From NCBI GenBank assembly GCA_026003755.1, contig BPHV01000003.1, positions 248,001 to 312,000 on the forward strand: DNA of 64,000 nucleotides, read 5' to 3'. This DNA is from Candidatus Roseilinea sp. (GTDB taxonomy: Bacteria; Chloroflexota; Anaerolineae; J036; Brachytrichaceae). The first letter of the stretch is position 1; the number at the start of each line of letters is the position of its first letter. Below the pieces are notes generated by a model that saw nothing but the letters and a program-made list of their open reading frames with translations, did not search any database and was not told the origin of the DNA. The position numbers were made by a program, and so were the translations under genes. Positions 16,154-36,683 of this stretch are shown piece after piece.

Positions 16154-16552
16154 ATGATGATGTATAAGCGAATCGTCAGGGTGATCGCTGCCGGCGTCGG
16201 CGCTGCTTTCGTGCTCACTGCTTGTGCAGTCAGCAATCGTCAAATCGTGACCGGCCCGAACGGCCTCGTCGTTGAGCCGCTCAACCTCACTACAACCCGC
16301 GCGCAACCCGCCGCGCCTGTCGTCGCTCCGCCTGCGGAAGAGCGCGCGCTGCTGCCTGCGCCGGCCACCGAGAAAGCTCCACAGCCATCCTCCGCGCCTG
16401 AGCAGTCCGGCAAGGCCGTCACGACCAGCGACGCTGCAAAGTCCGTCGAGCAGACCAAAGCCTCAGCCGCCAAGTCGGCCGACTCCATGTCGCATGGATG
16501 CGCCGGCTATGGCTACGCGGAAGGCTACGGCAGCGTCGCCAGCGACGACTAG
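16154..16552 (+). CDS. Small Ala/Pro-rich lipoprotein of unknown function
   Basis: A 132-residue protein I do not recognise. A positively charged start and hydrophobic stretch end in the lipobox LTAC, so it should be lipid-anchored outside the membrane. The body is low-complexity, rich in Ala, Pro, Glu, Ser and Thr (for example VVAPPAEERALLPAP), and it ends in a Gly/Tyr/Ser tail (HGCAGYGYAEGYGSV) with a lone Cys. A consensus promoter, TCTGGAGGATGATG ribosome-binding region and a strong terminator make it a stand-alone, probably well-expressed unit. Three ATGs lie close together at the start; the first or second could be used. Confidence 0.72.
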   Translation: MMMYKRIVRVIAAGVGAAFVLTACAVSNRQIVTGPNGLVVEPLNLTTTRAQPAAPVVAPPAEERALLPAPATEKAPQPSSAPEQSGKAVTTSDAAKSVEQTKASAAKSADSMSHGCAGYGYAEGYGSVASDD

Positions 16553-16575: not shown

Positions 16576-16613
16576 AACCGCCCCCGAGCACGCCTCGGGG
16601 GCGGTTTGCTTTT
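16576..16613 (+). terminator. Intrinsic terminator after the small lipoprotein gene
   Basis: A perfect 13-bp stem (16576-16588 with 16594-16606) around loop CACGC, followed by TTTGCTTTT. It isolates the lipoprotein gene from the glnA promoter region. Confidence 0.9.
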
Positions 16614-16676: not shown

Positions 16677-16704
16677 TTGACGGGATGTGCGCGGCCCGTA
16701 TAAT
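16677..16704 (+). promoter_or_regulatory. Sigma-70-type promoter for glnA
   Basis: TTGACG (16677-16682), a 16-nt spacer and a perfect TATAAT (16699-16704). The transcript would begin near 16711, giving a leader of about 85 nt that contains the hairpin at 16731-16765. Confidence 0.8.
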
Positions 16705-16730
16705 TAGGCTCAACCGAGCAAAGTGTCACC

Positions 16731-16773
16731 AGGACGTGACGTTCCGACGAGGGGCGTCACGTCCTCAATTTTT
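16731..16773 (+). promoter_or_regulatory. Terminator-like hairpin in the glnA leader (putative attenuator)
   Basis: AGGACGTGACG (16731-16741) and CGTCACGTCCT (16755-16765) form a perfect 11-bp stem with a 13-nt loop. CAATTTTT follows, only a few bases before the AAGGAG ribosome binding site of glnA. The position, after the promoter and before the gene, fits transcription attenuation or a protein-binding palindrome. No known glutamine riboswitch sequence is recognisable. Confidence 0.6.
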
Positions 16774-16794
16774 CCGAAGGAGCACTACCCAATC

Positions 16795-18225
16795 ATGACC
16801 ACCGAACTGAGAGAATTTTTGCGAATACCCTATGCGGAGCTGGAAGAGTTGAACCTCGAAGCCAAGGCGCAGCGCCTGGCGCGTGTGCCGATGCACCAGC
16901 TCCAAGAAGCACGCTTGAAGTATCTGACCGACGAGAAGCGGATCAAAGCCGTGACCGTGTTGTTCTCCGACCTAGAAGGTCGGCTGCACATGCTCGACTA
17001 CGACAAGAAGTTCTTGTTGAAGTCGTATGACAATCTGACCTTCGACGGTTCGTCCATCCGCGGGTTCACGGCGCAACGCGAGTCCGATCTGCGACTGGGG
17101 ATTGACTGGTCGGCCTTTTATTGGGCGCCGGCCGATGTTTTTGGCCCGGGCAAAGTGCTTGTTTTCGGCGAAGTGATGGAGCGCGACGGTCGGCCGTATG
17201 TTGCCGATACGCGCAGCATCCTCAAGGGCTTCGCGCAGCGGATGTTCGAGGAGAAGGGCTACACCCTGAACGCGGCGAACGAGATCGAAGGGTTCTTGTT
17301 CAAGGGGTTGAACGCCGAGCGAGAGTATCACAAAACGGGCCAGTTCGAGTTCGTCAACACGGGCGGCTACTATCACTCGCTACCGGGGGATCCGCTCCGC
17401 CAGTTCATTGATACGGTGGCCGAGGTGCAGCGGGCGATGGGCTTTCAAAATGAAAAGGATCACCCCGAGGTGGCGCCGTCGCAATTCGAGATCAATTACA
17501 GCTACACCGAGGCGGTGGCTGCGGCAGATACCATCCAGCTCTATAAGCTGATCTGTCGGCAGGTGGCCGCGCTGCAAGGCCTAACCGCCAGCTTTCTGCC
17601 TAAGCCGATCGTCGGCGTCAACGGCAGCGGCATGCACACGAACATCTCGGTCAGCCAAAACGGGGTGAACTTGTTCTGGGATGCAAACGGCGAGGAGAAC
17701 CTGAGTGAGTTTGCCTGGAACTTTGTGGATCGCATCTTGACGCACGCCAACGACATCTGTCTGCTGCTCAACGCGAGCGTGAATGCCTACCGCAGGCTTG
17801 ACCCGCACTTTGAGGCGCCGAACCAGATCATCGCCTCGCCGGTGGATCGCGGCTCGATGGTGCGCATTCCGATCGGCAACGCGCGCAGCGCGCGCATCGA
17901 GGTGCGCTCGGTGGGGCCGGATGCGAATCCGTACTTGGTCATGTATTCGCTCTTCCGCACCGGCCTGGAGGGCAGCATCAGCAACGAACCGGGGCTGCGC
18001 CAGGCGAAACGCTTCTTGCCGGACAACATCTACGACGCGATTGACAACTTCTGCGCCGCGCAGTGGACCTCCGTGTTGTTAGGCGACGACGTGAAGGCGC
18101 GCTACGCCGACCTGAAGCGCGCCGCAGCCGATCGCTGCCCGCGCCTGCTCGGCACGATCGTCAAAGGCCCTGAGGTGCAATATCACCACGAGGTCTATAA
18201 CCAGTATCTGTGGAATCTGTTCTGA
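16795..18225 (+). CDS. glnA: Glutamine synthetase, type I-like
   Basis: A 476-residue glutamine synthetase that joins ammonia to glutamate using ATP. Family landmarks in order are FDGSSIRGF, EIEGFLF (metal ligand Glu), QFEINYSY, NGSGMHTNISV (His ligand) and NARSARIEVR. The C-terminus contains an Asp/Ala-rich stretch as in GlnA, but I see no clear NLYDLP-type adenylylation site, so control by adenylylation is doubtful. The ATG at 16795 is chosen because of AAGGAG at 16777; a longer frame would start inside the leader hairpin. The gene has its own promoter and a leader hairpin, suggesting control at the leader. Confidence 0.94.
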   Translation: MTTELREFLRIPYAELEELNLEAKAQRLARVPMHQLQEARLKYLTDEKRIKAVTVLFSDLEGRLHMLDYDKKFLLKSYDNLTFDGSSIRGFTAQRESDLRLGIDWSAFYWAPADVFGPGKVLVFGEVMERDGRPYVADTRSILKGFAQRMFEEKGYTLNAANEIEGFLFKGLNAEREYHKTGQFEFVNTGGYYHSLPGDPLRQFIDTVAEVQRAMGFQNEKDHPEVAPSQFEINYSYTEAVAAADTIQLYKLICRQVAALQGLTASFLPKPIVGVNGSGMHTNISVSQNGVNLFWDANGEENLSEFAWNFVDRILTHANDICLLLNASVNAYRRLDPHFEAPNQIIASPVDRGSMVRIPIGNARSARIEVRSVGPDANPYLVMYSLFRTGLEGSISNEPGLRQAKRFLPDNIYDAIDNFCAAQWTSVLLGDDVKARYADLKRAAADRCPRLLGTIVKGPEVQYHHEVYNQYLWNLF

Positions 18226-18243: not shown

Positions 18244-18280
18244 AACGGGTGGGCGAAGGCACCGCCTTCGCCCACCCGTT
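18244..18280. terminator. Bidirectional terminator between glnA and the sugar ABC operon
   Basis: A 17-bp perfect inverted repeat (18244-18260 with 18264-18280) and a 3-nt loop. On the minus strand it is followed by a T run, suiting the operon that ends with the FmdB-like gene; on the plus strand it closes glnA. Confidence 0.8.
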
Positions 18281-36389: not shown

Positions 36390-36683
36390 ATGCGGGCCAT
36401 TAAACGGATCGAGGTGGTCACTGATGCGCTGGAGATCGAGCGCGTGGCGCAGGTGCTGGAGCAGCACGGCGTCTCCGGCTACACCATCGTGCCCGATGTC
36501 ATCGGCAAAGGCGAGCGGGGCATCCGCCGCGGCGATGAGCTGAGCGGCGTGTTCAAGAACAGCTATCTGCTCAGCACGTGCGACGAATCACAGTTGCCGG
36601 CCATCATCGAGGCCATCCGCCCAATTCTCAAGCAGCGCGGCGGGGTGTGCCTGGTGTCCGACGCGTGGTGGGTGCAACATTGA
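36390..36683 (+). CDS. PII-like signalling protein (SbtB-like)
   Basis: A 97-residue protein with the PII ferredoxin fold pattern: KRIEVVTDALEIERVAQVLEQ at the first helix, GVSGYTIVPDVIGKGERG with a T-loop region, and ILKQRGGVCLVSDAWWV at the end. It lies 86 nt after the SbtA-like gene, matching the sbtA-sbtB pairing of cyanobacteria in which SbtB binds adenine nucleotides such as cAMP and AMP and gates the transporter. The C-terminus lacks the CxxxxC redox extension of some SbtB proteins. The ATG at 36390 follows a -10-like hexamer, so it may be leaderless. Confidence 0.8.
   Translation: MRAIKRIEVVTDALEIERVAQVLEQHGVSGYTIVPDVIGKGERGIRRGDELSGVFKNSYLLSTCDESQLPAIIEAIRPILKQRGGVCLVSDAWWVQH

Follow-up and report, generated by a model that had tools for sequence, protein, structure and literature searches.

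The leader of glnA in the window, the 64,000-nucleotide stretch of a Chloroflexota genome that we analyzed (G000:C3:248001-312000), very probably forms an attenuator with two mutually exclusive hairpins, and an ANTAR-domain regulator is probably its effector; both readings come from comparison of sequences. One hairpin is a terminator-like palindrome and the other, referred to here as the rival hairpin, is of the antiterminator type. The 3' arm of the rival hairpin lies inside the 5' arm of the terminator, and thus only one of the two can form at a time (Table 1).

TABLE 1 Features of the glnA leader and gene, in window coordinates
Feature	Position	Strand	Basis
glnA promoter, TTGACG-16-TATAAT, sigma-70 type	16677-16704	+	11 of 12 consensus matches
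Segment 1, 5' arm of rival (antiterminator-type) hairpin, AGTGTCAC	16722-16729	+	8 pairs with 16736-16743
Six-base loop of rival hairpin, CAGGAC	16730-16735	+	alignment of 26 leaders
3' arm of rival hairpin, within the 5' arm of the terminator	16736-16743	+	folding, pairing
Terminator hairpin, 16731-16745 paired with 16751-16765, loop 16746-16750	16731-16765	+	folding, covariation
T run (U5), preceded by a 3-nt spacer	16769-16773	+	sequence
Ribosome binding site, AAGGAG	16777-16782	+	sequence; AAGGAG or AGGAG before the start in the relatives' leaders printed
glnA, glutamine synthetase, 476 aa, Gln-synt_N and Gln-synt_C	16795-18225	+	domain search, homologues

As the preliminary description of this DNA had stated, a perfect 11-bp inverted repeat followed by a T run, AGGACGTGACG ... 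CGTCACGTCCT (16731 to 16765), lies between the promoter and the ribosome binding site of glnA, and these two sites and the start codon (ATG at 16795) were found where it had placed them. The repeat matched once in the 64-kb window and in none of 100 shuffles. Perfect inverted repeats of equal quality occurred elsewhere in the window only at 16576, 18244, and 24803, and such repeats numbered 0 to 2 in each of ten Markov-shuffled versions of the complete window. The predicted terminator RNA has a 15-pair stem and a 5-nt loop (approximately −27.6 kcal/mol). Its G+C-rich stem and the U run after it have the form of an intrinsic terminator, but not an ideal one, because the run is five T's long and is separated from the stem by CAA; in many relatives the U run is directly adjacent to the stem. 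With a T run so short and spaced, the earlier expectation that the palindrome would stop most transcripts was not supported. A scan of the window for terminator-like sites returned 7, compared with 4.2 in shuffles, which on its own proves nothing; the evidence beyond chance is conservation.

The palindrome does not belong to the gene upstream, since that 132-aa gene has a strong terminator-like palindrome of its own (16576 to 16606). This open reading frame (ORF; 16154 to 16552, between rex and glnA) also has a promoter-like site to itself and begins like a lipoprotein (Leu-Thr-Ala-Cys); it matched no Pfam or NCBIfam family. A strong inverted repeat directly 3' of glnA (18244 to 18270) is likely a terminator.

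We found the element before a glutamine synthetase gene in 24 of the 28 genomes of the window's family: 18 were identified by a covariance model, 4 by pattern (G014, G023, G026, and G027), and the last 2 (G016 and G024) by the model once its filters were relaxed or once it was applied to retrieved loci. The other four genomes have no assembled glnA 5' end (G001 and G009 contain a distant paralogue only, G018 the last 41 residues only, and G021 a contig edge). The preliminary description had named the lack of the palindrome in close relatives as evidence against its reading; the palindrome was kept in all relatives with an assembled leader. It had also proposed comparing these leaders for a conserved alternative pairing, and such a pairing exists in all 26. 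The 26 leaders comprise those of the 24 genomes, a second copy in G015, and one from another genome, a bin named as Anaerolineales (L038). A promoter site with at least 9 of 12 consensus matches was present in 22 of them. Those close relatives of the window's genome that bear names are listed as Anaerolineae, Thermoflexales, and Candidatus Roseilinea. Searches of the rest of the class with model and pattern (368 genomes) gave no accepted match. Weak matches of model R1 (L139, L140, L141, G032, and others) lacked the CACC segment or did not precede a glutamine synthetase gene, the pattern matches in G344, G082, G203, G224, and G233 had no matched stem, and an 18.8-bit model match without a T run (L199) was not counted.

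Both hairpins are conserved with covariation. In alignment A2 of the 26 leaders, 95.3% of the cells of the terminator stem were paired, and 11 of its 15 pairs had changed on both sides; slid versions of the stem paired at 31 to 55%. The covariation score of the terminator (0.574, compared with 0.287 in shuffles) was reached by 0 of 500 shuffles; because the leaders are related, this and the other shuffle comparisons of the leaders overstate significance. In the five-pair core of the rival hairpin, 91.5% of the cells were paired and three pairs had two-sided changes. Taken alone, this core was weaker against shuffles, 9 of 500 reaching its covariation score and 371 of 500 its number of pair types. 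Past the core, the rival helix is lengthened by covarying outer pairs, in some leaders with a bulge. A rival hairpin of at least five pairs was found in all 26 leaders with one bulge or mismatch allowed and in 19 without; in genus g7, the contiguous stem has only three pairs, followed by a bulge or mismatch. The mean length of the rival stem was 7.2 pairs, compared with 4.5 (largest, 5.8) in 2,000 shuffles that kept the CAC, none of which reached it.

The bases conserved around the rival loop are CAC-[six bases]-GTG, and the CAC part lies outside the terminator stem. Of the 26 leaders, 25 have this CAC next to the loop; the exception (L212, from G016) has CGC with a compensating GCG, in which the middle loop-end pair changed from A-U to G-C. 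The loop itself has the consensus Y-N-N-G-A-N: position 1 is C in 24 leaders, U in 2, and never A, position 2 is any base, position 3 is mostly A, G, or T, position 6 is mostly C, and G4 and A5 never vary. In an automatic scan that required four contiguous pairs, a hexaloop hairpin overlapped the 5' arm of the terminator in 21 of 26 leaders. Among background terminators, the same scan found a hexaloop hairpin with any loop sequence in 63 of 245 and a G4 hexaloop in 22 of 245.

Across the leaders, predicted energies were −16 to −29 kcal/mol for the terminator and −3 to −12 kcal/mol for the rival hairpin. Because they favor the terminator so strongly, we infer that termination is the default and that the rival hairpin must be assisted. 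Left alone, the nascent RNA would fold segment 2 (the 5' arm of the terminator) and segment 3 (its 3' arm) into the terminator, ahead of the U run, and transcription would stop before glnA. Segment 1, which is transcribed first, could pair with segment 2 instead to give a hairpin of 5 to 10 bp with a six-base loop, C-N-N-G-A-Y. If this hairpin were held, the terminator could not form and glnA would be read. The holder would most likely be the single ANTAR response regulator of the genome, phosphorylated under a nitrogen-related signal and bound to G4 of the loop. In relatives with long leaders, a second hexaloop hairpin upstream would complete the usual dual ANTAR target.

Eleven leaders leave at least 38 nt free from the −10 box to the rival hairpin, and in 7 of them (L016, L017, L149, L150, L151, L200, and L213) we found such a second hairpin, having a six-base loop with G4; shuffles gave a mean of 0.68, and none of 2,000 reached 7. 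No loop position other than 4 had G in more than 3 of the 11, compared with 7 at position 4. A stricter first setting with two G-C pairs gave 5 of 11, compared with 0.5 in shuffles, and this is the cleaner number because the setting was relaxed after L150 and L213 had been seen. Only the upstream hairpins of L200 and L213 have A at position 1, and their loops, AACGCT and ACGGCT, thus carry the canonical A1 and G4. The linkers between the two hairpins were 7 to 37 nt long. We found no second hairpin in the other 15 leaders, most of which have no room for one; the window's leader is among them, with 21 nt from the −10 box to the hairpin. In the window's genus, only the hairpin that overlaps the terminator is left.

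A single ANTAR protein is encoded in the window's genome. It is a response regulator, its gene lies at L119:1099-1680 with the ANTAR domain at G000:C3:380640-380795, and the gene is unlinked to glnA. One ANTAR protein was found in 26 of the 28 family genomes and in 23 of the 24 that have the element; none was found in G009 and G011, the latter (92% complete) having the element. In an alignment with EutV, the window's regulator keeps Arg142, Lys143, and Tyr164, and it has Arg in place of both Lys147 and Met172 (residue names are partly from PMC8934654). Met172 of EutV is reported as essential for RNA binding, and its replacement counts against the ANTAR reading. According to PMC8934654, the sole base-specific contact of the EutV-RNA structure is with G4, and A1 is not contacted; the minimal binding motif is described as a single hexaloop, with both hexaloops having to be visited to prevent termination. 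PMC3369931 and PMC8164766 describe ANTAR antitermination as acting through a hairpin with a six-base loop and G4 that overlaps a terminator, and PMC3369931 reports ANTAR targets upstream of glutamine synthase genes and near glutamine and ammonium genes.

Seven outgroup Anaerolineae genomes of four families (G054, G087, G035, G032, G099, G084, and G111) have an ANTAR gene in the same orientation as glnA and no more than about 1 kb upstream of it, and a histidine kinase gene precedes the ANTAR gene in the three of these loci that were read. The first three cases had suggested that this linkage might be a rule, but only 1 of 40 neighborhoods in the class had it. Outgroup leaders were taken as the 260 nt preceding each of 90 glutamine synthetase genes; of the 49 terminators in them, 12 overlapped a G4 hexaloop, compared with 22 of 245 in a background drawn from the window and ANTAR neighborhoods (Fisher P = 0.004, with related species not being independent). 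Visual inspection of L021 and L289 showed a site resembling the canonical AGC[AAAGAG]GC, but it has two contiguous pairs only.

The leader resembles the ANTAR-target RNAs of the eut, nas, and ami systems (EutV, NasR, and AmiR) in that the 3' arm of a hexaloop hairpin forms the 5' arm of a terminator, G occupies loop position 4, a nitrogen assimilation gene lies downstream, an ANTAR response regulator is present in the genome, and long-leader relatives have a second upstream hairpin. Unlike the ANTAR consensus, the loops begin with C or U rather than A, and A5 is invariant as well. ANTAR targets have two hairpins joined by a linker of about 2 to 25 nt, whereas the window's leader and 14 others have one hairpin; further, the regulator gene of the window's genome is not linked to glnA. 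Since A1 and the second hairpin are absent there, the window's leader is not filed as an ANTAR-target RNA; it would work like one, and the longer relatives are closer to the type. In Clostridium saccharobutylicum, glnA is controlled through antitermination by an ANTAR-domain regulator, NitR/GlnR. The window's leader shares with that system the terminator before glnA, and the ANTAR-type regulator beside glnA has its counterpart here only in the outgroup Anaerolineae. For Chloroflexota, the literature searched contained no paper on control of glnA by ANTAR or by a leader attenuator.

The same two-hairpin attenuator might answer to another effector, either a different RNA-binding antiterminator or a small ligand sensed by the loop hairpin. 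The attenuation anatomy would be the same whatever the effector, and C in place of A at loop position 1, together with a genome that has the element and no detected ANTAR protein (G011), leaves room for another protein. We nevertheless regard this as unlikely, because the G4 hexaloops upstream in the long leaders are specifically an ANTAR feature and because conservation is confined to a small hairpin, about 16 to 24 nt long, with a free loop. The leader shares its position before glutamine and nitrogen genes with the Glutamine-I and Glutamine-II riboswitches, but it matched neither covariance model, nor any other Rfam riboswitch or leader family, at the gathering threshold, in agreement with the preliminary description, which had seen no glutamine riboswitch; a 10.7-bit partial match to Glutamine-II on the minus strand is due to chance.

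Two further explanations, each very improbable in our judgment, dispense with the switch between RNA hairpins. A dimeric repressor could bind TCAC-n6-GTGA as a DNA operator just downstream of the transcription start, and the CAC-n6-GTG dyad, kept in 25 of 26 leaders and with a paired change to CCAC/GTGG in L011, L013, and L020, would suit it. An operator of this kind, which the preliminary description had offered as a dimeric protein on the palindrome, is the weaker reading because the distance to the −10 box varies freely from 18 to 65 nt (helical phasing was checked) and because G-U pairs and bulges maintain the RNA stem while breaking the symmetry of the DNA. The G-U pairs are frequent in the terminator stem (9 of 26 leaders at one pair and 8 of 26 at two others), and a full terminator with a T run always follows the dyad. 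Moreover, a DNA regulon is not apparent, since the strict motif YCACCNNGAYGTGR has seven matches in the window's genome and, when these are folded, none but the glnA match shows a matched stem together with a T run. The hairpin could also act constitutively, setting only the basal level as a leaky terminator or a stabilizing 5' hairpin; in favor of this, the window's T run is short and lies 3 nt from the stem, and such hairpins can stabilize mRNA. This explanation leaves the conservation of segment 1, its covariation with segment 2, and the G4 and A5 of all loops unexplained.

The enzyme behind the leader appears to have a different history from the leader. The window's glutamine synthetase is 76 to 79% identical to acidobacterial ones, its nearest relatives outside the family being almost all Acidobacteria, and 33 to 38% identical to its best matches in the class outside the family, among the matches listed; judging from these identities, the gene looks laterally exchanged with an acidobacterial lineage. 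None of 72 acidobacterial orthologues had the strict motif upstream (loci L039 to L111 without L056, which has no upstream sequence), and therefore the gene did not bring the leader with it. The element precedes the window-type enzyme in most family genomes, and in five g7 genomes and two g8 genomes (G015 and G024) it precedes another glutamine synthetase, which is 30% identical to the window's (g7 compared with g8, 71 to 72% in the N-terminal parts). Because the same leader stands before two nonorthologous enzymes and is missing from the acidobacterial orthologues, it tracks the function rather than the gene. The strict pattern had no match in 25 upstream regions of paralogues in the family; the covariance model, run on some of the family's paralogue upstream regions, found the element in L200 and L213. 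The gene for GlnE (PF03710) was found in none of 18 family genomes sampled, the window's included, which helps the earlier remark that no adenylylation site is clear in the enzyme and makes adenylylation unlikely, although it bears on the GlnE gene and not on the enzyme itself. Leader control may be the main switch of glnA, as had been proposed.

Taken as a whole, the most specific version of our reading is possible, although we would not yet call it probable: a Chloroflexota family that lacks GlnE switches transcription of glutamine synthetase through a single-hexaloop ANTAR antiterminator with the loop code C-N-N-G-A-Y, not A-N-N-G-N-N, and the leader persisted when the enzyme behind it was replaced by a nonorthologous one. 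The control of nitrogen assimilation in Chloroflexota has been little studied. If the reading is true, it would add an RNA attenuator at a central nitrogen gene, extend ANTAR antitermination to this phylum, and provide natural one-hairpin and two-hairpin versions of one leader. The EutV-RNA structure raised the question whether antitermination can work with a single hexaloop, and these versions could answer it. The conservation of the leader before two nonorthologous enzymes suggests that the regulation outlived the enzyme.

The only PF00543 (P-II) match in the window's genome (47 bits) lies at 36390 to 36683, just after the gene of a membrane protein that presumably resembles SbtA. The product is probably an SbtB-like carbon sensor rather than GlnB or GlnK, and the genome may lack a classical P-II protein. 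In a genome of another family (G224, locus L217, approximately positions 420 to 520), a gene for the same type of enzyme has CACC-n2-GATGTG right after TATAAT and CACATT near the ribosome binding site, without a terminator stem; this is either chance or a translational variant. Model R1 also matched dispersed inverted repeats, GGTGCGTCGCA ... TGCGACGCACC, in several Anaerolineae genomes (nine in G032; also L139 and L141), and from their sequences these look like a family of extragenic palindromic repeats.
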